Of a stretch of 24,661 nucleotides of DNA, positions 3,648 to 20,369 are shown piece after piece. Where the stretch lies: positions 1-24,661 of the IMG/VR virus record IMGVR_UViG_3300036652_000920. One strand, 5' to 3'. Source of the stretch: a virus. The position numbers and the translations under genes are program-made. Each line of letters begins with the position of its first letter. Position 1 is the stretch's first letter. A model generated the notes under the pieces. That model did not search any database, was not told the origin of the DNA, and saw only the letters and a list, made by a program, of their open reading frames with translations.

Positions 3648-5084
3648 TCAGGCCCACAGCTTCTTTGCCAACGCGAGAGTCATACCCATCATGAGGTCGA
3701 CCTGGGCGATTTTCTCATCCTGGTCGGTGAGCTGTTCCAGGATGCCGAACTCCTTCCCGATGTCTCCCCCGTAGACCTCGCCCACGCCAGCTAGAATCGG
3801 CTGCACGTCTGCCGGACCACCGTCGAGACCGGTGAGCCAGCAGCGCATCTTGGCCAGGTACACCAGCAGGTCGATGGCGGTGTCGGCCTGGGTCTCGTCG
3901 GACGTGTCCAGGCCGGTACCGATGCGGTCGACCTTGCGAGCGATGTTGCCCAGGATGCCCATCTCCCCGCGCCGCTTCCAGCTGTCCCCGTAGGCAGCGT
4001 GCTTCTCCGCGTGCAGGGTGTTCACATAGCCCAGGAAGTCCGGTTCGGGGGCCGGGGCCACCGGGGCAGGCTCCTGGGGCTTCCCGGCAGGCGCGGTGGA
4101 CGCGGCACAGGCAGCGTGCAGCCGAGTACCCTGGAGCGGCACCAGCGGAGCCACGTCCCCGCTCCAGTACCACTGCAACACCCGCAGCCAGCTCCGCATC
4201 ATGGGCTCCGGGAAGGTGTCGGCGTCAACCTGGGCCCCTGTGCGGATGCTGTGCTCGTACTCGAACCACATACGCACGAGAGAGTCCAGGTCGGCGAGGT
4301 CCTTGACGCCGTCGAGCCGGGGCGAGTCGGAATGGGGCATCAGCGGGCTGTTCCGGCGGATGCGGTCGGCCTTCGCCCAGTGCTGCTGGTACAGGTGGAA
4401 CGACGTCGTGCTGAAGTGCAGCGAGCCGACGCTCAGCCCAGTCAGCCCAGCGACGACCTCGAGCAGCACCGACCACTCGAAGGCATTGATGCCGCTCCAG
4501 CCCCACATGGCGTCGTTGCTTCGGATGCCGACGTGGAGGTCCACGAACCCGAGCCGACTGCTGAAGCTGAGCCAGTTGTTGCAGGCGATGTCCTTGCCCG
4601 GCTTGGTGTCCTCCGTCGGGTCCCACAGCGTGGCCACGGCCTGCCGCGACCCGGGGCTCTCCTTCAGCGTGTCGACCACGTAGGCCAGCTGGTCCACCCC
4701 GTGGTAGTTGCGCAGCCGGGGCCCATAGCCCGCGCGCCAGCTAACGCCGTCGTCGGTGAAGTCGGCCGCGCGGGGCAGGTACGGCGCCAGCCCGGCGACG
4801 TCGTTGCGCCCAGCCAGGACCCACATCGTCTCGACGATCTGGGCGGCGATGTTGGCCTTGCGGTCGGGCAGGGTGATCTCCCGCTGCCACGGCCTGCTCA
4901 GCGTGATGCCGACGTGCATGAGCTCCAGGGTGCGGCCCGCGCGCGACCCGAACTCGGAGCCGTCGGCCAGCAGGTCGCCCATCAGGACGGGCAGCGCCCG
5001 GTCGACGTTGTCGAAGTGATAGTTGAAGTTCACGATGTCCTTCTCGTATGTGGTTGTGCCCCAGCCCTCGGTCGCCGGTCGCAC
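3648..5084 (-). CDS. ThyA-like dUMP (hydroxy)methyltransferase fused to a MazG-like domain (478 aa)
   Basis: Residues ~15-320 follow the thymidylate synthase fold: catalytic Cys168 in KDIACNNWLSF, RSNDAMWGWSGIN at 188-200, and FHLYQQHW near 229-236 in place of DaHIYxNH. Asn200 matches the FN asparagine that reads uracil; dCMP hydroxymethylases carry Asp there, so dUMP is the likely substrate. The usual PPCH is replaced by IACN. A Pro/Ala linker (325-349) leads to a helical domain (350-478: HAEKHAAYGDSWKRRGEMGILGNIARKVDRI... DTAIDLLVYLAKM) of the MazG-like/DUF1599 type. In the context of HMUDK and AADT genes, making 5-hydroxymethyl-dUMP is likelier than dTMP, with the MazG-like part perhaps trimming dTTP or dUTP pools. 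The GTG at 5084 follows GGGGAAGA; longer in-frame starts overlap the upstream stop and add a low-complexity N-terminus. Confidence 0.8.
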   Translation of the reverse strand: MRPATEGWGTTTYEKDIVNFNYHFDNVDRALPVLMGDLLADGSEFGSRAGRTLELMHVGITLSRPWQREITLPDRKANIAAQIVETMWVLAGRNDVAGLAPYLPRAADFTDDGVSWRAGYGPRLRNYHGVDQLAYVVDTLKESPGSRQAVATLWDPTEDTKPGKDIACNNWLSFSSRLGFVDLHVGIRSNDAMWGWSGINAFEWSVLLEVVAGLTGLSVGSLHFSTTSFHLYQQHWAKADRIRRNSPLMPHSDSPRLDGVKDLADLDSLVRMWFEYEHSIRTGAQVDADTFPEPMMRSWLRVLQWYWSGDVAPLVPLQGTRLHAACAASTAPAGKPQEPAPVAPAPEPDFLGYVNTLHAEKHAAYGDSWKRRGEMGILGNIARKVDRIGTGLDTSDETQADTAIDLLVYLAKMRCWLTGLDGGPADVQPILAGVGEVYGGDIGKEFGILEQLTDQDEKIAQVDLMMGMTLALAKKLWA

Positions 5085-5154
5085 GGCCGACGTCTTCCCC
5101 ACGCGGCCCCACGGTTCCAATCGTGGGCGAGGTGGCGCACCGAGGGCTGGGAGT

Positions 5155-6111
5155 CTAGATGAGGGTGTAGTAGTCAGGGAGGACGGGGTCGGGCTGCGGG
5201 CCCGGGTGGGCGGGCTTGTAGGGCCGGTCAGCCACAGGCCCCTGGCTGTACCGGTGGTACTTGCTGTATTCACAGAGCAGGTTGCTGCCTATGTCCATCA
5301 GGCTTGGTACACGGTACCCCAATCGCGGGCATTCCGGTAGTGCACGCAGAGCACCGTACACGGCCTTGACCGTGTCACCTACCCGAGCGTTCGGGTTGAC
5401 GGCCTTGGCGCCCTTGATGGACCCCGGGCCGGGGATCAGAAAGTCGTCCTCGCGGTCCTCTCCACACTGGTATCCCCAGTCGGTGAGCACCTGCATCGCC
5501 ATGAAGTCTCCCACGCCCTTGTTGCGCTTCAGGGCGTTGAACCTCACCGATTGGGTGGGCGCCACCTCCCAGGAAGGCATGACGTCGTCGGGCGAGCCAG
5601 GGGTGAACAGCCGCTGCGTCAGGTTGATGATGGAGTCCAGCTTGTCGGTACCGGGCGTGTCCGACTGCGGGAACACCAGGTAGGCGCTCGTGAAGAAGGG
5701 GCGCTCAGCGCTGGCCTTCGTCCTCGTGATCTTGTGCGGGGTGTCCTTGTGGGCCCGCTCCTGAACGGTCTTGGTCTTGACGGACCCCCGGTACTCCTTC
5801 CAGGCCGCTCGGACGTCCTCGAGAGCCTCGACCGTCGGGTAGCCACCCAGCATGACCGAGAGGTACTGCCACGTCTCGATGCGCCCAGTGTGGCGGTACA
5901 GGAACGCCCGCATGAGGGTGTCTCGTGGGCTCAGCCCCGGCTCGAACAGGTCGGTGAGCAGGAACTGAGTGCCCGGGTCCAGCACGCGGAAGACGTTGGT
6001 GAATTTCCGGGACGCCAGAATGGGGTCGTCGGTCCACGGCTGCGGGGCCCCGGCCTGCCGCTTCTCCCAGATGCGGTGCCGCTCAACTACGAACTGCAGG
6101 AAGTCGTCCAT
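5155..6111 (-). CDS. 5-hmdU DNA kinase helical-domain protein (aGPT-Pplase clade 2 type, 318 aa)
   Basis: The N-terminus FLQFVVERHRIWEKRQAG..QPWTDDPIL...FTNVFR (residues 4-41) is the signature of the family first described by Iyer and colleagues as alpha-glutamyl/putrescinyl-thymine pyrophosphorylase clade 2 and later renamed the 5-hmdU DNA kinase helical domain. The rest is helix-rich, with GVGDFMAMQVLTDWGY (~207-222) resembling a helix-hairpin-helix DNA-contact segment. ATG 6111 forms a TGATG junction with the upstream gene; earlier in-frame starts overlap that gene. It likely recognises hmdU in DNA and works with the separate P-loop kinase two genes downstream. C-terminal ~30 residues are Pro/Tyr-rich and probably disordered. 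Confidence 0.8.
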   Translation of the reverse strand: MDDFLQFVVERHRIWEKRQAGAPQPWTDDPILASRKFTNVFRVLDPGTQFLLTDLFEPGLSPRDTLMRAFLYRHTGRIETWQYLSVMLGGYPTVEALEDVRAAWKEYRGSVKTKTVQERAHKDTPHKITRTKASAERPFFTSAYLVFPQSDTPGTDKLDSIINLTQRLFTPGSPDDVMPSWEVAPTQSVRFNALKRNKGVGDFMAMQVLTDWGYQCGEDREDDFLIPGPGSIKGAKAVNPNARVGDTVKAVYGALRALPECPRLGYRVPSLMDIGSNLLCEYSKYHRYSQGPVADRPYKPAHPGPQPDPVLPDYYTLI

Positions 6112-6317
6112 CACAGCTCGACCGACACAATCCGCACCGCAGTGACCATTGGGCCCCTCCGGTAGCACATGAGCGCGCCCAGGGTGCGCGCCTCGTTGTC
6201 TTCAGCTGTCATGCCCAGCCTCTTCTCTTCCACGTCGACCGTGACGTAGTGGGTGCGGATGTTGGCTGGTGTGGGCGGTCGTACCCGCGCCACGTCAACC
6301 TCCAGCTCATAGAGCAT
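6111..6317 (-). CDS. Small hypothetical protein (68 aa)
   Basis: Starts at ATG 6317 within the end of the zinc-ribbon gene and ends in a TGATG junction with the hmdU kinase helical gene. The sequence alternates in a beta-like way (THYVTVDVEEKRLGM ... MVTAVRIVSVEL) with a helix (AEDNEARTLGALM) between, suggesting a small alpha/beta fold. I do not recognise the family. It is inside the modification operon by coupling. Confidence 0.65.
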   Translation of the reverse strand: MLYELEVDVARVRPPTPANIRTHYVTVDVEEKRLGMTAEDNEARTLGALMCYRRGPMVTAVRIVSVEL

Positions 6318-6453
6318 CGAGGGGCAGCTCGTCCCAGGTGTAGCCGCACCGCCCGCACGTGCGGCGGATCAGGCCGATGAACATGTAGCGGGCGCTGGCG
6401 TAGGAGCTGCCGCACTTCACGCAGCGGCTATGTGGGGAGAAGGGCCGCGTCAC
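6307..6453 (-). CDS. Zinc-ribbon miniprotein (48 aa)
   Basis: A 49-codon frame starts at GTG 6453 (GTGA overlap with the gene upstream) and ends 11 nt inside the next gene. It encodes CVKCGSSYASARYMFIGLIR followed by RTCGRCGYTWDELPL: two CxxCG knuckles about 20 residues apart, the classic zinc ribbon. Its smallness would make gene finders miss it. It probably binds nucleic acid or serves as a small partner of a modification enzyme; no specific family is assigned. Confidence 0.7.
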   Translation of the reverse strand: MTRPFSPHSRCVKCGSSYASARYMFIGLIRRTCGRCGYTWDELPLDAL

Positions 6454-6740
6454 TTCAGCTCCCGGATGGCCTCGAGGATGAGCTCGTCAGCCTTGTCGGT
6501 GTCGACGTCCTCCAGGTAGCCGTCGGAGTCAAACTCGCCGCTGACGAACTTGCCCCGCACGAGCGCCGCGTACACCTCCCACTCCCAGCCGGAGTTGCCG
6601 AACGGGCGCTTGCCGCTGAAGCCCTCGCCCTCCCGCCACACCGTCGCGAGCAGCCTGACCAGGTACTCGCGCACCGAGGACGCTTCGGCGTCGTTGTCGT
6701 GCGGGTCCATGGGGCACTTCAGAACACCCTGGGCACTCAT
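6450..6740 (-). CDS. Conserved actinophage hypothetical protein (96 aa)
   Basis: ATG 6740 overlaps the stop of the PLP-enzyme gene (ATGA) and has GGAGGAGAG 6 nt upstream; longer frames are not needed. The protein (SSVREYLVRLLATVWREGEG... NSGWEWEVYAALVRGKFV...DKADELILEAIREL) is acidic and mixed alpha/beta. I recall closely similar short proteins (LL.TVWREGEGFSGKRPFGNSGWE.DLY.AL...) as frequent hypotheticals in actinophages, not tied to modified-base clusters, so it may be a passenger. No catalytic motif is visible. Confidence 0.75.
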   Translation of the reverse strand: MSAQGVLKCPMDPHDNDAEASSVREYLVRLLATVWREGEGFSGKRPFGNSGWEWEVYAALVRGKFVSGEFDSDGYLEDVDTDKADELILEAIRELK

Positions 6741-7603
6741 GCGAACTCTCCTCCAACGATCCAGAAGCAGGTAGTGCCGTCGCGGCGGGTCCACCACTCG
6801 GGCTGCACCAGGTTGAGCCACCGGATGCATTTTCCTTCGTAAGTCGGGTGAAAATTGATACCGTCCAGCGACTCCTTCATCCGGTCACCGTAGCTGGCCC
6901 ACACGTCATGCAGCGTGAGGAAGTGCAGGTTGACACCCGGGATCTCCATCCCACGGCCAACGAGGGCCAGCCGGTTGGCTGCCCAGGTTCGCCGGTCGGG
7001 CCCGATCTCCATGAGGTAGATGTCGCGCAGTGCGGCGGGGCGCGCGTCGTGCAGGCCGTACAGCACACCACAGGCTGTGTTGGACGAGCCGAACGGCAGC
7101 ACCAGGGTCTCTACCTCGTCAGGCAGGTTGGCGGTCTGGGGCGCCCCCACCCGCAGGAACGCCTCGATCTCCTCTCTCCCGGCGTCGGGCGGCGTGGTTA
7201 TGCCGTAGGGCATCCTCCAGACGCCGGGCTCTCGAGCGGCCTCCAGGGCCGCTCTCTGCAGGGCTGTGTTGTAAGCGACGGGGATGGCCCGCACGGTGGC
7301 CCCGGCGTCCACCGCGATGCGGATGGACGGATGGCGCACGGCCTTCTCCGGAGTGGTGGCGCCCACGATGATCTCACACTCGAGGCCGAAGTCGCGGGCC
7401 ACCACGGCCGACATGGCCGCCTGCGGCGACAACACCGACTGGGCCGACACCACCGTCATGACGTCGCCCCGGGCAGCCGCCTGCCCGATCAGGTGCTGGC
7501 AGGCTCGCAGCTTGGAGCCGTTGACGCCCGGAGGGTCGATGCGGTGAGCGTCCTCCCGCTTGAACCAGCGTCCGCCTCGGAGCTCGACGGGGGTGAGGGT
7601 CAC
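6737..7603 (-). CDS. Fold-type II PLP-dependent enzyme (288 aa)
   Basis: The sequence fits the tryptophan synthase-beta/ACC deaminase/D-cysteine desulfhydrase superfamily: PLP lysine probably Lys31 in NGSKLRACQ, SAQSVLSPQAAMSAVVARDFGLECEIIVG (53-81) as the SNH..A.A..A...G segment, and the phosphate-binding loop PFGSSNTACG (170-179). It is shorter (288 aa) than most members (320-340 aa). GTG 7603 forms a GTGA overlap with the gene upstream; longer in-frame starts lie inside it. PLP chemistry is known in thymidine hypermodification, where amino acids attached to the base are decarboxylated or rearranged, so tailoring of an aminoacyl-thymidine in DNA is the best inference. Free amino-acid metabolism is the alternative. 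Confidence 0.8.
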   Translation of the reverse strand: MTLTPVELRGGRWFKREDAHRIDPPGVNGSKLRACQHLIGQAAARGDVMTVVSAQSVLSPQAAMSAVVARDFGLECEIIVGATTPEKAVRHPSIRIAVDAGATVRAIPVAYNTALQRAALEAAREPGVWRMPYGITTPPDAGREEIEAFLRVGAPQTANLPDEVETLVLPFGSSNTACGVLYGLHDARPAALRDIYLMEIGPDRRTWAANRLALVGRGMEIPGVNLHFLTLHDVWASYGDRMKESLDGINFHPTYEGKCIRWLNLVQPEWWTRRDGTTCFWIVGGEFA

Positions 7604-8307
7604 TTGACTTCCAATCCGATGGGTGCGGCAGGGGTGGGCACGAACGCGGCAGGCTGCCCGGTGCGGGAGAACGACATCACGGTAGACCAGCGGTGCCAGA
7701 ACCCCGCCACCATCCAGTAGCCGTAGAGCTCCTCGAGCCGGTGCGCCAGCGCGCCGAGGTAGGCGGGGTAGTTCACGCAAGTTCCCTCGCCGAGCAGTGA
7801 CTCGTACTTCCGGCGGTGGAGGTGCAAGTATCGAGCGGCGACGTCGGTGAGGACGACGCCCTTGGGCTCTCCAGCGAACACCCGGTCCAGCAGGGCCCGG
7901 TGCTGGGTGCCCTCCCGCGTCTTCCACGCCGTCAGGTCGCCGAAGTCCAGCCCGACGATGTCAGCCTCGTCGTAGTGGACCGGGTTGTAGGAGTCAGCCT
8001 CCATCACGAAGACCCCTGGTACGTGGGCTGCGATGTGCCGCACCGCCTCGGTGCTGGTGTCGTACACGCCGTGGTACCGAGGAGCCCAGAGCTCCTCGAT
8101 CATGAGGGACTGGGCCCCCAGCCCGCCGAAGTACTCCATCGCGGTGTGGACGTTGGGGTGCAGCCCGGCCAGCGCCCGGTAGGCGTGCCACCCCGCCGTC
8201 AGGTGGGCGCTGGCTCCCCGGGGAGACCGCAGCGCCCAGTTCAGGAACCACTCCTGCTTGGGCTCCTCGACACTCATGGTCCACCGCTCGAGGATTGTCA
8301 GCTCCAC
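7600..8307 (-). CDS. Rossmann-fold, methyltransferase-like protein (235 aa)
   Basis: Features like class I SAM-dependent methyltransferases: a glycine-rich turn MEYFGGLGAQSLMIEEL (~58-74) as motif I, an acidic position in HGVYDTSTEAVRHI as motif II, ADSYNPV as motif III and ADIVGLDFGDLTAW (~115-128) as motif IV with an aspartate in place of NPPY. A C-terminal part (ELYGYWMVAGFWHRWSTVMSFSR) is aromatic and beta-like. GTG 8307 has AAGGAG 5-6 nt upstream and overlaps the homing-endonuclease gene by 10 nt. Its place between the AADT-like and PLP genes suggests a tailoring step on modified thymidine. The methyltransferase reading is from motif shape only; a non-catalytic Rossmann protein is possible. 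Confidence 0.55.
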   Translation of the reverse strand: MELTILERWTMSVEEPKQEWFLNWALRSPRGASAHLTAGWHAYRALAGLHPNVHTAMEYFGGLGAQSLMIEELWAPRYHGVYDTSTEAVRHIAAHVPGVFVMEADSYNPVHYDEADIVGLDFGDLTAWKTREGTQHRALLDRVFAGEPKGVVLTDVAARYLHLHRRKYESLLGEGTCVNYPAYLGALAHRLEELYGYWMVAGFWHRWSTVMSFSRTGQPAAFVPTPAAPIGLEVK

Positions 8308-12393: not shown

Positions 12394-12590
12394 TAGAACC
12401 CGTCCCAGTAGTCGCCCTCGTCGGGCCCGTCGATGGACAGGGGGTCCTGCGCACGCCGGGCCTGCTTCCGCTTGCGGTTGTCGGGCCCGAACCTCGCCGG
12501 GCGGTCGATCTTCTCTCCGCACAGCAGGCAGTGGCCTCGCACGTTCGACACGCCGTGGACGCCATACACTGACGCCGCGCAGAACGTCAT
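12393..12590 (-). CDS. Small zinc-knuckle hypothetical protein (65 aa)
   Basis: ATG 12590 overlaps the end of the dCMP deaminase (ATGA). The protein has CLLCGEKIDRPARFGPDNRKRKQARR: one CxxCG knuckle followed by a basic stretch, then an acidic tail ending DEGDYWDGF. One further cysteine near the N-terminus (FCAASVYG) could complete a site. Single-knuckle proteins like this often sit beside phage polymerases, but I do not recognise a named family. Confidence 0.6.
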   Translation of the reverse strand: MTFCAASVYGVHGVSNVRGHCLLCGEKIDRPARFGPDNRKRKQARRAQDPLSIDGPDEGDYWDGF

Positions 12591-12955
12591 GGGGCGATGA
12601 CCGTCCGGACGATGCCCGCCGTCAACGCGCGGCGGGCGCACGGTGCGCACGGCTGCCGGGTGACGTAGAGCGTGGCGCCCCGGGCCTGCAGACCCGCTCG
12701 CTGCAAGGCGTTGTCCTCGGCGTGCAGGCATAGCTCGTCGTCGGCCTGCGGGCTGCCGCTGGCGCAGCTACGACCCGCCCGTGGGCAGCCACCGTCGCCG
12801 CAGTTGGGTGCCCCGCGCGGGGTGTCGTTGAACCCAGTGGCAACCACGTCATGGTCGGGGCTCATCACGACTGCGCCCACCCGGTCCCGCGTGCAGCTGG
12901 ACCAGGTGGCGACGGCCCGCGCCAGAGCCACGGCCCGTCGGTCCCACTTCGTCAC
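12587..12955 (-). CDS. dCMP deaminase (122 aa)
   Basis: Zinc-dependent cytidine/deoxycytidylate deaminase: VGAVVMSPDHDVVATGFNDTPRG (26-48), catalytic H78-A-E80 in CLHAEDNAL and PCAPCAR at 102-108 (C103, C106). An additional cysteine-rich stretch, C52, C57, C64, may hold the second structural zinc seen in phage dCMP deaminases. It converts dCMP to dUMP, the substrate of the ThyA-like enzyme. At 122 aa it ends right after the final core strand (GIVRTVIAP), shorter than most (about 150-190 aa), so the C-terminal helix that often packs in the hexamer is absent. GTG 12955 overlaps the upstream stop. Confidence 0.9.
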   Translation of the reverse strand: MTKWDRRAVALARAVATWSSCTRDRVGAVVMSPDHDVVATGFNDTPRGAPNCGDGGCPRAGRSCASGSPQADDELCLHAEDNALQRAGLQARGATLYVTRQPCAPCARRALTAGIVRTVIAP

Positions 12956-13436: not shown

Positions 13437-13487
13437 CGTGTTCTCCTCGGCGATTGGCGGGCCCCTGTGGCCCACGGGTGGAGCGTA
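13437..13487 (-). promoter_or_regulatory. Promoter/leader cassette, copy 4
   Basis: Minus strand: TGGGG-TACGCT (13487-13482), CCACCCGTG, then leader hairpin GGGCC-ACAGG-GGCCC (core 13471-13461), then GAGGAGA before ATG 13436. It is the likely start of the long leftward polymerase/modification transcript. It is part of a 77-bp sequence repeated exactly at 20293-20369. Confidence 0.65.
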
Positions 13488-13530
13488 CCCCACCCGGGGG
13501 TAGTTGCGCTACCCCCGGGTGGGTGGAACT
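13454..13530. repeat. 77-bp exact direct repeat, copy A
   Basis: Identical over 77 bases to 20293-20369, in the same orientation. It contains the terminator hairpin, the -10-like box and the leader mini-hairpin. Flanking bases differ immediately on both sides. Confidence 0.9.
13489..13523 (-). terminator. 15-bp hairpin with CGCAA loop after the ssDNA-binding gene
   Basis: Arms 13489-13503 and 13509-13523 pair perfectly around the loop CGCAA (minus strand). It begins 10 nt after the stop of the DUF2815 gene and directly precedes the -10-like box of the next unit. No U-tract. An operator role is an alternative because the arms also form a palindrome on DNA. Confidence 0.6.
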
Positions 13531-14457: not shown

Positions 14458-14750
14458 GTGAAATCCTGCTGGGCGTGCCGGACTGCCGGGGCGTCCGGAG
14501 CCCACAAAGACCTGGCGCCCGGCTCCGGCGTAACCGGCTCGTCGTCCACGTAGTCGGCGAACAGCCCACCGACACGAACGATGAGTTTCCTCATCTCGGC
14601 GTAGCTGGCGCTCAGCTCGCCGTGCCGGGTCTTGGACTCCCGCAGCATGGCCCGCAACTGGGGCGTACTGCGACGGGCGATCTTCTCCATGATGCCATTC
14701 AGCTCGGTGGCAACGATGGCGATCTCGAGGACGTTCCGTTCCATTGCCAT
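14454..14750 (-). CDS. Helical hypothetical protein (98 aa)
   Basis: ATG 14750 overlaps the TAA of the DUF2800 gene (TAATG) and the end overlaps the DUF4406 start (GTGA). Mostly helical (VLEIAIVATELNGIMEKIARRSTPQLRAML, SYAEMRKLIVRVGGLFADYVDD), with a Pro/Ala-rich tail; coiled coil is plausible. No family recognised. Position suggests a role in the replication/recombination module. Confidence 0.7.
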   Translation of the reverse strand: MAMERNVLEIAIVATELNGIMEKIARRSTPQLRAMLRESKTRHGELSASYAEMRKLIVRVGGLFADYVDDEPVTPEPGARSLWAPDAPAVRHAQQDFT

Positions 14751-15904
14751 TACAGCGTCTCCTTCTGGAACTCTTCAGCCGCTCTGGCTGATGGGTTGAT
14801 AGCGGCCCTACGATCGCTCTCCGGCACCAGAGACGGGCTGCCGGGGCCCCTGGTAATGAAGGGGCCCACGGCCACATCGAAGTCGCCCCCGAGGAGCTTC
14901 TCCAGGTCGCCGATACCCCGCATCTTCCGGGTGCTGACTTCGTCCTTGTCGTAGCCGATGGAGGTCAGCGCCTCCAGGGCACCCTCCGGGTCGGTGATGG
15001 ACCGGCGACCGCCCGACATCACCACCTTGAACCCCGGGATGGTCTTGCCCTTGGAGTAGACGAGGTCCAGGCAGTAGTCCTTCACCGCCGCGCACCACTT
15101 CTCGATCGCAGGGATGCGCTCCAGCGAATCGGCCAGCTCGACCTCGTCCAGGAGCTCGGCCGGAGCGAAGTCGCCCTGCACCGAGTACTCCATCTGAGCC
15201 CGGCACTGGCCGGACACAGGACACCAGCGGCAGGCCTCGTCGCTGGGCCCGAACGGCGCGTCGGGCCCCAGGGCAAGCTCGGCCGTGGGGATGATGCTGT
15301 CGCGCCACCCCCGCAGCTCGTTGGCCGTCAGCTCCTCGGTGCTGACGTGGCCCAGCCGAGGCTGGAAGATGTGCAGACGCACCACCTGTGCCTCGCCCAG
15401 AAGGTCGCCATAGGCCTCGAGCGCGCCCACCCCGTACAGCCGGATCTGCGGGTTGCCCTGTGCCTCCACCTTCACGCCCAGGCCGTACTTGAAGTCGCAG
15501 ACCTCCACGACATTGGGCGAGACGATGACGGCGTCACTGGTGCCCCAGCAGTCGGGCACACCGGTGGGCAGTCGCTGCTCGAGCAGCAGCTGGCCGAGCG
15601 GGTTGTCCTGCAGCCGGAGACGCAGGAACCGGACGTAGTCGTCAGCGTAGACGAGCATCTCCTCCTCGGCCTCGGGCAGGATGTCGAACTCCTGCCTCCA
15701 GGCCGGGGCCCAGGAGAGGTCTTCCGACTCGCCCAGCAGGCGCACCCGGGCCATGTGCTCCGCCAGGGCGTGGGCCGCCGTGCCCTCCCGTGCATACACG
15801 CTGTCCGGCTGGTCGGGCACCGTCTCCGCCATGCGGATGCTCGCCGGGCACCGCAACCACCGTTCCGCTGCACTCGGGCTCAACGTAGCGTGCAGCCCGC
15901 TCAC
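14750..15904 (-). CDS. DUF2800 Cas4/RecB-like nuclease (384 aa)
   Basis: DUF2800 hallmarks: LSPSAAERWLRCPASIRMAE (residues ~8-27), REGTAAHALAEHMAR (~39-53), GTSDAVIVSPNVVEVCDFKYGLGVKV (the D...D-x-K PD-(D/E)XK core, ~120-146), then PQIRLYGVGALEAYG, and DEACRWCPVSGQCRAQ, a C-terminal cysteine cluster with the early C19. These cysteines likely hold an Fe-S cluster as in Cas4/AddB. It probably processes dsDNA ends for recombination-dependent replication. GTG 15904 overlaps the stop of the upstream gene (GTGA). Confidence 0.9.
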   Translation of the reverse strand: MSGLHATLSPSAAERWLRCPASIRMAETVPDQPDSVYAREGTAAHALAEHMARVRLLGESEDLSWAPAWRQEFDILPEAEEEMLVYADDYVRFLRLRLQDNPLGQLLLEQRLPTGVPDCWGTSDAVIVSPNVVEVCDFKYGLGVKVEAQGNPQIRLYGVGALEAYGDLLGEAQVVRLHIFQPRLGHVSTEELTANELRGWRDSIIPTAELALGPDAPFGPSDEACRWCPVSGQCRAQMEYSVQGDFAPAELLDEVELADSLERIPAIEKWCAAVKDYCLDLVYSKGKTIPGFKVVMSGGRRSITDPEGALEALTSIGYDKDEVSTRKMRGIGDLEKLLGGDFDVAVGPFITRGPGSPSLVPESDRRAAINPSARAAEEFQKETL

Positions 15905-16356: not shown

Positions 16357-16370
16357 CTAGCGAAGGCTAG
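16357..16370 (-). terminator. Short hairpin over the stop codon of the upstream gene
   Basis: Five-base-pair stem CTAGC/GCTAG closed by a CTTC tetraloop; the TAG stop (16369-16367) lies within the first arm. It is short and has no U-tract, so it is at best a weak terminator. Confidence 0.3.
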
Positions 16371-17020
16371 GGAAGTTCCCAGAAGCCCTCCTCCCCCGGC
16401 TCCGGCAGCATCGACTTGACGGGGGCGAACCCCAGCAGGCCCGCACGGGTACCGAAGAACGGCACCTCTGGGTACACAACCCGGAGACGATCGGCCAGCT
16501 TGCGGTCGGGCGACGACTTGGGCCCCTCGCCCGTGCCTGCCGGGCTCTGCAGCGCGACGATCTCGGCCTTCTCGCTTCGGAACCCCTGCGTGCCCAGCAA
16601 CGTCCGGCCTGTGGCCTTCACCACGCCCATGATGAACGGGCCCTGGCCCCGGCCCGTCAGCTGGAGCTCGATGTGGTCCGGCTCGGTGTAGGCGTAGAAC
16701 CCACAGGTGCACTTCTCGTCGGGTGACTCGTGCGCCTCGGTGCCGATGCCGAACACGGCGTGGCACTTGGCCACGTTGACGCCGGGGCGCCAGGGCTTGG
16801 CCGTCTCGACGTGGCGGGCCCGCAGTCGGCCGTACTTGTCCACCTTCCAGACGCGCAGGCCGTACACCTCGCCGAGGGCCAGGTCGAACGGGAGACCGGT
16901 GAACTCCGGGCCCGGCTTGTCCGGGCCGTACGAGAGGCTGATGCCGCCGGGGCCCGAGATGACACCGCCCTGGGTGTAGCCGAGTATCTGCTGGATCTGC
17001 CGGGAGTACGGGCTAGACAC
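16367..17020 (-). CDS. Phage hypothetical protein with CxCGFYA motif (217 aa)
   Basis: GTG 17020 has AAGGAG 7 nt upstream. After a short N-terminus the protein is beta-rich: EFTGLPFDLALGEVYGLRVWKVDKYGRLRA, then W...VNVAKCHA, DEKCTCGFYAYTEPD (CxCGFYAY) and a region that looks like a phage sheet-rich domain (GPFIMGVVKATGRTLLGTQGFRSEKAEIVAL). I recall the CxCGfYA segment from actinobacterial and phage hypotheticals but know no function. It lies between the SNF2/Acb2-like genes and the nuclease unit. Confidence 0.72.
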   Translation of the reverse strand: MSSPYSRQIQQILGYTQGGVISGPGGISLSYGPDKPGPEFTGLPFDLALGEVYGLRVWKVDKYGRLRARHVETAKPWRPGVNVAKCHAVFGIGTEAHESPDEKCTCGFYAYTEPDHIELQLTGRGQGPFIMGVVKATGRTLLGTQGFRSEKAEIVALQSPAGTGEGPKSSPDRKLADRLRVVYPEVPFFGTRAGLLGFAPVKSMLPEPGEEGFWELP

Positions 17021-17120
17021 GGGCGGGCTCCTTGACGGGTGCGGCGGGCTCGGTGACGGGCACCGACTCGGGCATGGGCTCCAGGTCGATGCGGCGGCGA
17101 ACGGGTCCGATGTCTCCCAT
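17013..17120 (-). CDS. Tiny Pro-rich conserved protein (35 aa)
   Basis: ATG 17120 overlaps the stop of the Acb2-like gene (TAATG) and ends after overlapping the next GTG. It begins MGDIGPVRRRIDLEPMPESV and continues as a Pro/Glu/Ala tail. Short proteins with the same beginning (MG.IGPVRR..E.EP) occur in this position in other actinophages as far as I recall. Below usual gene-finder length. Function unknown; it may be an intrinsically disordered peptide that binds a partner. Confidence 0.7.
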   Translation of the reverse strand: MGDIGPVRRRIDLEPMPESVPVTEPAAPVKEPARV

Positions 17121-17341
17121 TACTCCTTCTCTCTTGCGTCGGCGATGGACTGGCGAACGAAGCAGTCCTTGGCCTCCAGCAGCTTACGCAGCCCCGCCGA
17201 CAACTCGGGGCCGTCCTGGAGGGCATTGGTCATCTGGTGGGCCAGGTCGTGGATGGGCTTGCTGAATTCCTGCGAGCTCGGGGGCAGATGGTCGTACTCG
17301 AACCACCACAGCAGCTGGGTGGTCGCCGGGTGTCTGCTCAA
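17120..17341 (-). CDS. Probable Acb2/Tad1-hairpin protein, cyclic-nucleotide sponge candidate (73 aa)
   Basis: All-helical small protein: HPATTQLLWWFEYDHLPPSSQ, then EFSKPIHDLAHQMTNALQDG and PELSAGLRKLLEAKDCFVRQSI. The second half, a helix-turn-helix hairpin with PEL..GLRKLLEAKD..VR, matches in pattern the Acb2/Tad1 hairpin domain (PE-R-..A...L.EA). Known Acb2 proteins sequester CBASS cyclic di-/trinucleotides, and Tad1 sequesters Thoeris signals, so it could be a counter-defence sponge. Similar ~75-90-aa proteins are common in actinophages. ATG 17341 overlaps the end of the SNF2 gene. Binding residues cannot be verified without structure or alignment; a plain helical hypothetical is the alternative. 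Confidence 0.6.
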   Translation of the reverse strand: MSRHPATTQLLWWFEYDHLPPSSQEFSKPIHDLAHQMTNALQDGPELSAGLRKLLEAKDCFVRQSIADAREKE

Positions 17342-18642
17342 AGAGGACTCCTTAGATGGTCCAGCAGGACCTGCTGGGTGGTGGTCTTGCCCTTCAGCCG
17401 TTGAGCGATGAGCTTGTCAACGGTCCGTTCGCACTCCAACGTGTGGATGACGACGGGGTGCGTCTGCCCCTGGCGGGCCAGCCGGGCGTTGGCCTGCTGG
17501 TATAGCTCCAGGTCCCACGTCAGGCTGGTCCACACCAGAGTGTGGCCACCCGACTGCAGGTTCAGGCCGTGGCCCGCCGACGCCGGATGCGCCAGCAGCA
17601 TGGGCACCTCTCCCCGGGCCCAGGCCTGGATAGCCCCCGGGTCGTCGAGCATGCGGGCCTGCGGGAACGCAGCCTTGATGCGCGCGGCCTCGGGGATGTA
17701 GTTGTAGAACACCAGGATGTTGTCGCCGGTACCGTCCGCCACCTCCTGCAGCGCGTCCAGCTTGGCGTTGTGCAGCGGGGCGTAGGTGCCGTCCTGCTCG
17801 TCGCTGTAGATGAACCCGGCCGACACCTGCGACAGCTTGTTGGTCAGCACGACCGAGCTAGAGGCGCTGTGGGTGCTCGTATCCAGCTCGAGCAGTAGCT
17901 CCCGGGCGAACTGGTCGTACTGTCGCCGTGCCGCCGGAGGCAGCTGGACGTCGACCACGTTGTAGGTGACGGGCGGCAGCATGTCTAGCTCGTCGTACGA
18001 ACTCATGTAGAGGCACATGTCCTCCAGCAGCGAACGGATGCGCTCCTCAGATCCCTCTCGAGGTCGCCACCCGATCACGACACCCGACGGCAACTGCCCC
18101 GTCGGCACGAAGTACCGCTCCCGGTAGCCTCCCAGCGCCGTGCCCAGCCGCTGGCCCTTGTCCAGCAGGAACATCTGGGCCCAGAGGTCAAGGTAGCCGT
18201 TGGGCGCCGGGGTGCCCGTCAGCCCCCAGACGTGGCTGGCAGCGGCAGTGAGCTTGCGGGCGGCCTTCCACCGCTGGCTGTTCCGGTTCTTGAACGAGCT
18301 GAGCTCGTCTAGGATGACGGTGCGGTAGCCCGGCTTGGCGTCAGCCAGGTTGTCCCGGCTGATGACTGTGACGTCCGCACCTGCCGCGAGAGCGGCCTGC
18401 CGCTGGGTGGGGGTACCCGCTGCAAGGGCCAGCGTCAGATCGGGCCTCCAGAGGGCTCTCTCGGCGGGCCAGACGTGCTCAGCGACCCGCTTGGGCGCGA
18501 CCACCAGCGCGGGCAGGTGGCGCGGCTCGAGCGCCGACAGCGTGGTGGCGGTCTTCCCGAGCCCCATGTCAAGGAACAGGCCAGCACGGTCCTGCTTGCG
18601 CAGGAAATCACGTGCTAACTCTTGGTAGGCATGAAGCTTCAT
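17338..18642 (-). CDS. SNF2-family DNA helicase/translocase (434 aa)
   Basis: A compact SF2/SNF2 ATPase: LHAYQELARDFL (Q-like), Walker A DMGLGKTATTLSAL (~23-36), LVVAPKRVAEHVW (Ia), motif II LDELSSFKNRNSQRWKA, motif III GLTGTPAPNGYLDLWAQM, then the second RecA lobe with NILVFYNYIPEAARI, motif V HPASAGHGLNLQSGGHTLVWTSL and motif VI QANARLARQGQT. ATG 18642 forms an ATGA overlap with the upstream gene; the much longer frame above is not supported. SNF2 proteins of this type accompany VRR-NUC, PolA, DUF2800 and DUF2815 genes in phage replication modules and probably remodel forks or recombination intermediates. Confidence 0.92.
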   Translation of the reverse strand: MKLHAYQELARDFLRKQDRAGLFLDMGLGKTATTLSALEPRHLPALVVAPKRVAEHVWPAERALWRPDLTLALAAGTPTQRQAALAAGADVTVISRDNLADAKPGYRTVILDELSSFKNRNSQRWKAARKLTAAASHVWGLTGTPAPNGYLDLWAQMFLLDKGQRLGTALGGYRERYFVPTGQLPSGVVIGWRPREGSEERIRSLLEDMCLYMSSYDELDMLPPVTYNVVDVQLPPAARRQYDQFARELLLELDTSTHSASSSVVLTNKLSQVSAGFIYSDEQDGTYAPLHNAKLDALQEVADGTGDNILVFYNYIPEAARIKAAFPQARMLDDPGAIQAWARGEVPMLLAHPASAGHGLNLQSGGHTLVWTSLTWDLELYQQANARLARQGQTHPVVIHTLECERTVDKLIAQRLKGKTTTQQVLLDHLRSPL

Positions 18643-18947
18643 CGGGCCCGCCGTTCCTGCACGCTGTCGGGCATGAAGCCCTCGTCGTCGGCCTGCCCGG
18701 GGGTTCCGTGCCGCTCGCACGGTCGTCTCCCGGCCCAGCCGTGATTGCGGCAGAAGGGGTCGGAGTGGTGCTCGCAGCACGAGCAGCAGAAGCAGTCTGT
18801 CCTCTCCCCCTCCACCCAAGGCCCGGCGTAGACCTTGCGGTACCGCAGGACGCCGTCGTAGCGGTTGATCTCCTCGACCCAGACCTCGCCACCGTCGCTG
18901 GGCAGGCGACGGTGGTCCCTCGAGGACGTCTTGGGATAGGTCCCCAT
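18639..18947 (-). CDS. Cysteine/histidine-rich putative zinc protein (102 aa)
   Basis: ATG 18947 (TGATG with the EXLDI gene) to TGA 18639 (ATGA with SNF2). The middle carries CFCCSCCEHHSDPFCRNHG and PCERHG (six or seven Cys, several His within ~35 residues), enough for two zinc ions. The N-terminus (WVEEINRYDGVLRYRKVYAGPW) is beta-like. No family is recognised; it may be a small RING-like or zinc-knuckle partner of the helicase. Confidence 0.68.
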   Translation of the reverse strand: MGTYPKTSSRDHRRLPSDGGEVWVEEINRYDGVLRYRKVYAGPWVEGERTDCFCCSCCEHHSDPFCRNHGWAGRRPCERHGTPGQADDEGFMPDSVQERRAR

Positions 18948-19411
18948 CAGGGCACGACCACGGTATTCCACTCGGCGTCGATGCGGTCGTCCTGCTCCGA
19001 CAAGTCGGCCAGGAGCGTCCGCGACAGCCTGGTGTACCGGCCATCCACCGCCATGCTCTTGATCAGCTCGGCGGGGGTCTTCCAGACGTCGACGTAGACC
19101 TGCGAGTCCTGCCCCCAGCCAGTCATCACCCCGCTGGGGTTGCAGGAGCGGCAGGGGTAGGTGTCGCTCGGCTCGGCGCTGATGGCGTCGTACCCCTCCA
19201 GCCGGGAGCAGTCCCGGCTGGCGTGCACCACGCGGTAGTGGACGGCCCGCCTGACCACGAAGCTGCCCGCCTCCGTCCGCCACACGTCGATGTCCAGCCA
19301 CTGGGGCTTGCGGTGGTCGGGTGTGTCCGTGCTCTCGGACGTCAGCAGCTCCCCCGCGAACACCACCCGGCGACCGTATCCATCTGTGACGGTGATCTCA
19401 GTCCCAGCCAT
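18947..19411 (-). CDS. EXLDI-type phage protein (154 aa)
   Basis: The middle follows the pattern I know as EXLDI: VFAGELLTSESTDTPDHRKPQWLDIDVWRTEAGSFVVRRAVHYRVVH (W.EI.LYRT.gG.YVv.R.G.S..yH), here as WLDIDVWRT. A CRSC pair and a helical end (AELIKSMAVDGRYTRLSRTLLADLSEQDD) follow. ATG 19411 has GGAGGGAGACG just upstream and overlaps the HTH gene by 14 nt. The HTH/EXLDI gene pair occurs in other actinophages. Its biochemical function is not known. Confidence 0.75.
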   Translation of the reverse strand: MAGTEITVTDGYGRRVVFAGELLTSESTDTPDHRKPQWLDIDVWRTEAGSFVVRRAVHYRVVHASRDCSRLEGYDAISAEPSDTYPCRSCNPSGVMTGWGQDSQVYVDVWKTPAELIKSMAVDGRYTRLSRTLLADLSEQDDRIDAEWNTVVVP

Positions 19412-20274: not shown

Positions 20275-20326
20275 GTCGTTGATCTCCTTCGGTTGGCGGG
20301 CCCCTGTGGCCCACGGGTGGAGCGTA
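20275..20326 (-). promoter_or_regulatory. Promoter/leader cassette, copy 7
   Basis: Same as copy 4: TGGGG-TACGCT (20326-20321), leader hairpin GGGCC-ACAGG-GGCCC (core 20310-20300), AAGGAGA, ATG 20274. Confidence 0.65.
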
Positions 20327-20369
20327 CCCCACCCGGGGGTAGTTGCGCTACCCCCGGGTGGGTGGAACT
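20293..20369. repeat. 77-bp exact direct repeat, copy B
   Basis: Identical to 13454-13530 over 77 bases, same orientation, 6839 bp apart. The last base of identity lies next to the end of the 45-aa gene, whose TAG begins at 20370. Confidence 0.9.
20328..20362 (-). terminator. 15-bp hairpin with CGCAA loop
   Basis: Arms 20328-20342 and 20348-20362, loop CGCAA on the minus strand, beginning 6 nt after the stop of the 45-aa gene. Same sequence as the hairpin at 13489-13523. No U-tract. Confidence 0.6.

Follow-up and report, generated by a model that had tools for sequence, protein, structure and literature searches.

The 73-amino-acid protein P0002, encoded in the 24,661-base virus record analyzed here (the window), is best read as a member of a phage-borne clade, unannotated and so far unrecognized, that is sister to the Acb2/Tad1 hairpin. 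Phages use Acb2/Tad1 proteins to capture the molecules with which bacterial immune systems signal an infection. Homology of the P0002 family to this hairpin superfamily, taken in its broad sense, can be asserted with little hesitation; that P0002 is itself a nucleotide-signal sponge is likely. If the family does consist of sponges, several hundred sequenced phages carry an uncounted counter-defense gene, whose altered conserved residues would let it be used directly in probing for signals left unbound by the known sponges.

The reading frame of P0002 (MSRHPATTQLLWWFEYDHLPPSSQEFSKPIHDLAHQMTNALQDGPELSAGLRKLLEAKDCFVRQSIADAREKE; 73 aa, translated from the window), which includes the stretch PELSAGLRKLLEAKDCFVR, is a real gene and not a chance ORF, because it has a ribosome-binding site (AAGGAG), start and stop codons that overlap those of its neighbors, and homologs in phages. 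Its TTG shares 4 bases (TTGA) with the stop codon of the SNF2-family helicase gene, its own stop overlaps the next ATG (TAATG), and many homologs begin at the same position. The initial annotation, which had placed an ORF at these coordinates (17120-17341), is borne out on that point. It had also placed the gene between SNF2 and nuclease genes, which is accurate for the SNF2 gene directly upstream, but three ORFs, of 35, 217 and 135 aa, precede the DUF2800/PD-(D/E)XK nuclease gene. The same minus-strand replication operon includes genes for an Enc34-type ssDNA-binding protein and a PolA-family polymerase (Table 1). The true start of the SNF2 gene lies further inside than the maximal ORF start. 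Translational coupling within such an operon would supply P0002 early in infection and, as P0002 illustrates, a putative counter-defense gene can be embedded in a replication operon in this way.

Table 1. Coordinates of P0002, its operon neighbors and other features mentioned in the text (window positions unless another locus is named)
Feature	Coordinates	Strand	Remarks
P0002 ORF, 73 aa, Acb2/Tad1-hairpin-like	17120..17341	minus	phrog_5120/phrog_1761; TTG start 17341, stop TAA 17122-17120
Ribosome-binding site AAGGAG	17348..17353	minus	6 bases before the P0002 TTG; read from sequence
SNF2-family helicase gene (PF00176)	17338..19044	minus	directly upstream of P0002; 19044 is the maximal ORF start
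35-aa ORF	17013..17120	minus	directly downstream of P0002, runs into next gene; read from sequence
217-aa gene, function unassigned	16367..17020	minus	next in operon
DUF2800/PD-(D/E)XK nuclease gene	14750..15904	minus	same operon as P0002
Likely thymine hypermodification genes	3648-7927	minus	
Likely thymine hypermodification genes	12587-12955		
80-base intergenic repeat, four copies	1192-1271, 1573-1652, 13451-13530, 20290-20369		two copies 99% identical
Xandras gp101 family (phrog_1454)	L179:7262-7456		
In-frame hairpin-protease fusion	L017:5167-7881		
In-frame hairpin-protease fusion	L031:5350-7875		
In-frame hairpin-protease fusion	L051:5587-6336		

Homologs of P0002 are found by tblastn in 348 of 50,697 phage records, and at least 585 further homologous stretches occur in viral contigs; the carriers include phages of Vibrio, Mycobacterium, Erwinia, Acinetobacter, Gordonia and others. 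Databases label the family hypothetical, and the Acb2/Tad1 profile misses it. P0002 matches phrog_5120 (E 1.2e-32) and phrog_1761 (E 7.5e-27), both annotated as of unknown function, “hypothetical”, and searches of Pfam, NCBIfam and PADLOC returned no match at E≤1. An alignment of the sister clade (A4) matches the P0002 alignment at E 5e-39, and by this similarity the two are plainly one family. Fifteen columns are invariant among 60 aligned divergent copies (F14, H18, E46, G50, R52, K53, L54, L55, E56, A57, K58, D59, C60, V62 and R63), most of which are kept at ≥93% in a wider set of 177 sequences, with G50 and C60 alternating with Ala; R52, K53, E56, K58, D59 and R63 make up a near-invariant set. 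An “Occludin homology domain”, the annotation given in Acinetobacter phages, was rejected as a chance assignment (Pfam matched 2 of the 60 members, weakly). The A1 profile finds its best PDB match (E 0.0033 over 45 columns) in residues 426-472 of 8jaj chain a, a phage virion protein named Gp22, and this too is probably due to chance.

A search with the Acb2_Tad1 hairpin profile, which the initial annotation had suggested as a check, was run, and P0002 does not match PF24729 (Acb2_Tad1_hairpin; curated cut-off 27 bits) even at E≤1. P0002 is outside the curated definition of that family and is not filed as a member. As a positive control, a hand-typed Acb2 consensus scored 78.9 bits against PF24729 and also matched the solved Acb2 p26. 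Relatives of P0002 reach only 13-16 bits, below the cut-off; among these, Brevibacterium phage AGM16 gp27 (16.4 bits, E 0.011) and a relative in Vibrio phage martha 12B12 (14.1 bits, E 0.057) align in the correct register, and PF24729 is the sole Pfam match of each. In a Pfam scan of the 60 members of A1, PF24729 had the largest number of matching members, 5 of the 60, all of them weak (best E 0.045), and none of 8 annotated phages carrying the P0002 family that were searched attains the cut-off. This profile taken alone would have led to rejection of the hairpin assignment.

A sequence search of the PDB with P0002 yielded chance matches only, and Acb2 is absent at E≤10 from whole-PDB profile searches with A1 and A3, the latter listing a designed helical protein first and nothing relevant. 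With A4, the Acb2 homolog 43 entry 9ptq ranks second (E 0.061). Four P0002-family profiles score 8.2-23.6 bits against the Acb2 homolog 43 segment, above all 2000 shuffles; by the same scoring p26 is no better than chance and T4 Vs.4 is weak. Direct hhalign comparison of the P0002 family with the PaP2 Acb2 family was null (E 0.07-0.44).

The link between P0002 and Acb2/Tad1, which profile comparison indicates is real but remote, runs through intermediates. A study of the mycobacteriophages Xandras and BigBubba (PMC11953737) describes the product of Xandras gene 101 as a CBASS antagonist. Xandras gp101 exceeds the PF24729 cut-off (59.1 bits, E 5e-16) and belongs to phrog_1454 (E 1.3e-29), a family matched also by the AGM16 gp27 and martha 12B12 relatives (E 3.9e-6 and 3.7e-5, respectively) and weakly by T4 Vs.4 (E 0.0015). 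Annotation as hypothetical extends to phrog_1454 itself, in nearly all of the 60 best of 383 matching phage records. In the PDB, the Xandras-family profile finds 9ptq, described as Acb2 homolog 43 “in complex with 3'cADPR”, at E 5.9e-12 and Tad1 at E 4.6e-5, and the structure predicted for L180, a gp101 copy with 98% identity, has 9ptq as its top PDB match, with T4 Vs.4 ranking second to fourth. The P0002 family and its sister sets in turn align with the Xandras family in hhalign at a probability of 89.8-97.2% (single-comparison E 1.8e-6 to 2.8e-11), at 95.2-97.6% on reduced columns, and at 93-96% with other alignments, which reproduce the match in one register. The strongest alignment spans mainly helices 2 and 3 (34-45 columns). 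When the columns of the Xandras alignment were shuffled 200 times, scores averaged approximately 10 with a maximum of 19.0, and the reversed alignment scored 11-12.6, against real scores of 41.0-57.3.

Similar comparisons can be drawn for the predicted fold. AlphaFold2, supplied with the family alignment, models P0002 with a mean pLDDT of 96.2 and helices at residues 5-12, 21-40 and 45-72. The predicted fold is that of Acb2, whose protomer consists of a short helix and two long antiparallel helices (PMC12043709). In BFVD, a collection of predicted viral structures, Acb2/Tad1 hairpin proteins are the best named matches to the model beyond its own family, at ranks 7, 9, 11, 12, 13, 14, 17 and 19; several matches in this list are unnamed, and significance drops fast after rank 9. 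Foldseek with VIA-align against the PDB lists many unrelated helical bundles and leaves Acb2 unlisted, a comparison that says little for a hairpin of this size. The relationship to Acb2/Tad1 proposed in the initial annotation is upheld by way of the Xandras intermediate, the scoring against Acb2 homolog 43 and the fold matches, though not as a PF24729 match. Chance convergence of short amphipathic hairpins with unrelated functions, for which one could cite the null comparisons with PaP2 Acb2, the shortness of the alignment, the low-complexity-like character of the helices and the designed protein ranked first with A3, is already disfavored by the column-shuffle, reversal and sequence-shuffle controls, by the agreement of independent alignments on one register and by the fold matches of both the L180 and P0002 models, and we regard it as very improbable.

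The residues of P0002 can be set against those of its closest counterparts. The Xandras gp101 family is homologous to P0002 by profile comparison, has the same predicted helices (at 2-7, 16-39 and 44-67), and shares with it an F-x-[YFH] motif before helix 2 and the pattern LPxGxE...K-L-x-EA; unlike P0002, it exceeds the PF24729 cut-off, and its invariant GRE and TKLEEAMFWANAAIAR are absent from the P0002 family. In the ungapped register of helix 3, Xandras GRE-K-A-V-V-K-T-K-L-E-E-A corresponds to P0002 GPE-L-S-A-G-L-R-K-L-L-E-A, such that Arg41 of Xandras is replaced by Pro45 and Thr48 by Arg52, each strongly conserved within its own family. Acb2 homolog 43, also a compact hairpin of similar length, contains an LP-x-G-x-E-K-S...KLxEA stretch in the register of P0002, but its GREK...KTKLEEAMF reads GPE...LRKLLEAKD in P0002, with the same exchange of Arg for Pro at the start of helix 3 and of Thr for Arg, and the C-terminal half of its helix 3 is unlike that of P0002. 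Since the P0002 clade departs from the Xandras family where helix 3 begins, and R52, K53, E56, K58, D59 and R63 are fixed in it, its preferred signal is probably different from the one favored by known Acb2 proteins.

PaP2 Acb2 (p26) and T4 Vs.4 have the same protomer architecture, a short helix with two long antiparallel ones, but P0002 is approximately 20 residues shorter, and its direct profile similarity is not significant for PaP2 Acb2 and weak for T4 Vs.4. An aromatic residue (Tyr, Phe or Trp) occupies the position of P0002 Y16 in 88% of the 177 sequences. In one hhalign comparison Y16 falls on the Xandras position of the nucleotide-binding Tyr of Acb2, and shorter alignments stop short of it; Y16 may be the counterpart of this residue, which precedes helix 2 as Y11 in PaP2 and Y8 in T4. 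In T4 Acb2, Y8A disrupts cyclic dinucleotide binding (PMC12657218). A hand alignment places T4 R79, near the end of helix 3, in register with P0002 R63. Tad1 carries a C-terminal helical hairpin homologous to the Xandras family and, in addition, an N-terminal beta domain (PMC12043709) that is absent from P0002.

On the sponge reading, P0002 would assemble into multimers, as Acb2 and Tad1 do, with nucleotide pockets at the subunit interfaces. There it would sequester, without degrading, a defense second messenger, conceivably a cyclic di- or trinucleotide or an ADP-ribose signal, such that effectors of the CBASS, Thoeris or type III CRISPR type would stay off. A literature search found no report of ligand binding for the phrog_5120/phrog_1761 clade.

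The genomic surroundings of the hairpin gene bear on this proposed role. By tblastn of 80 loci with flanks of up to 6 kb, none of 12 window genes, including those for SNF2, the nuclease, the ssDNA-binding protein and PolA, was found beside the hairpin, and the same loci hold no conserved partner gene, the largest cluster of common neighbors comprising 8 loci. In annotated phages the hairpin gene has neighbors that encode capsid, portal or baseplate proteins or that serve lysis, replication or nucleotide metabolism. Since it has no constant neighbors and moves between contexts, it fits a mobile accessory with a counter-defense role. The translational overlap with SNF2 and the co-located ssDNA-binding protein, nuclease and PolA genes might suggest that P0002 is a small accessory factor belonging to the replication operon, such as a helicase or nuclease cofactor or a DNA-binding protein; with those partners at none of the 80 loci, and with homology pointing to Acb2/Tad1, this alternative is improbable.

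Three loci encode the hairpin as an in-frame N-terminal extension of a prohead protease (Table 1). A conserved linker, VIDAR[ST]IETR[ST]APVL, leads to the HK97-type protease, and in L017 and L031 the frame continues through a major-capsid-like region. The fusion loci contain internal GTG/TTG starts, and a separate protease start is possible. Together with the capsid, portal or baseplate genes that lie beside the hairpin gene in several phages, these fusions could mean that the same fold has been co-opted for protein binding or assembly in virion morphogenesis or capsid maturation, with no function as a signal sponge. This seems unlikely, given that early, replication or lysis regions hold the gene in the window as well as in other phages, that no structural neighbor is constant across the 80 loci, and that the charged invariant residues of helix 3 would equally suit a ligand site. 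A more far-reaching version of the sponge reading, tentative and on balance doubtful, is that phrog_5120/phrog_1761 constitutes a large unrecognized Acb2/Tad1 sponge branch in phages of many bacterial groups, which traps a different, possibly undescribed signal and in some phages is built onto a capsid protease-MCP polyprotein, tying the sponge to capsid supply.

Two other aspects of the window may be mentioned. It contains a set of likely thymine hypermodification genes, comprising a thymidylate-synthase-like gene, a 5-hmdU DNA kinase (HMUDK_hel, E 1.7e-41), a dCMP-deaminase-like gene and, as judged by eye, a gene resembling a PLP enzyme. Its 80-base intergenic repeat holds a long GC-rich palindrome, and the segment at 13480-13530 folds at -36.3 kcal/mol (z -5.5); the repeat is possibly a terminator or regulatory element.
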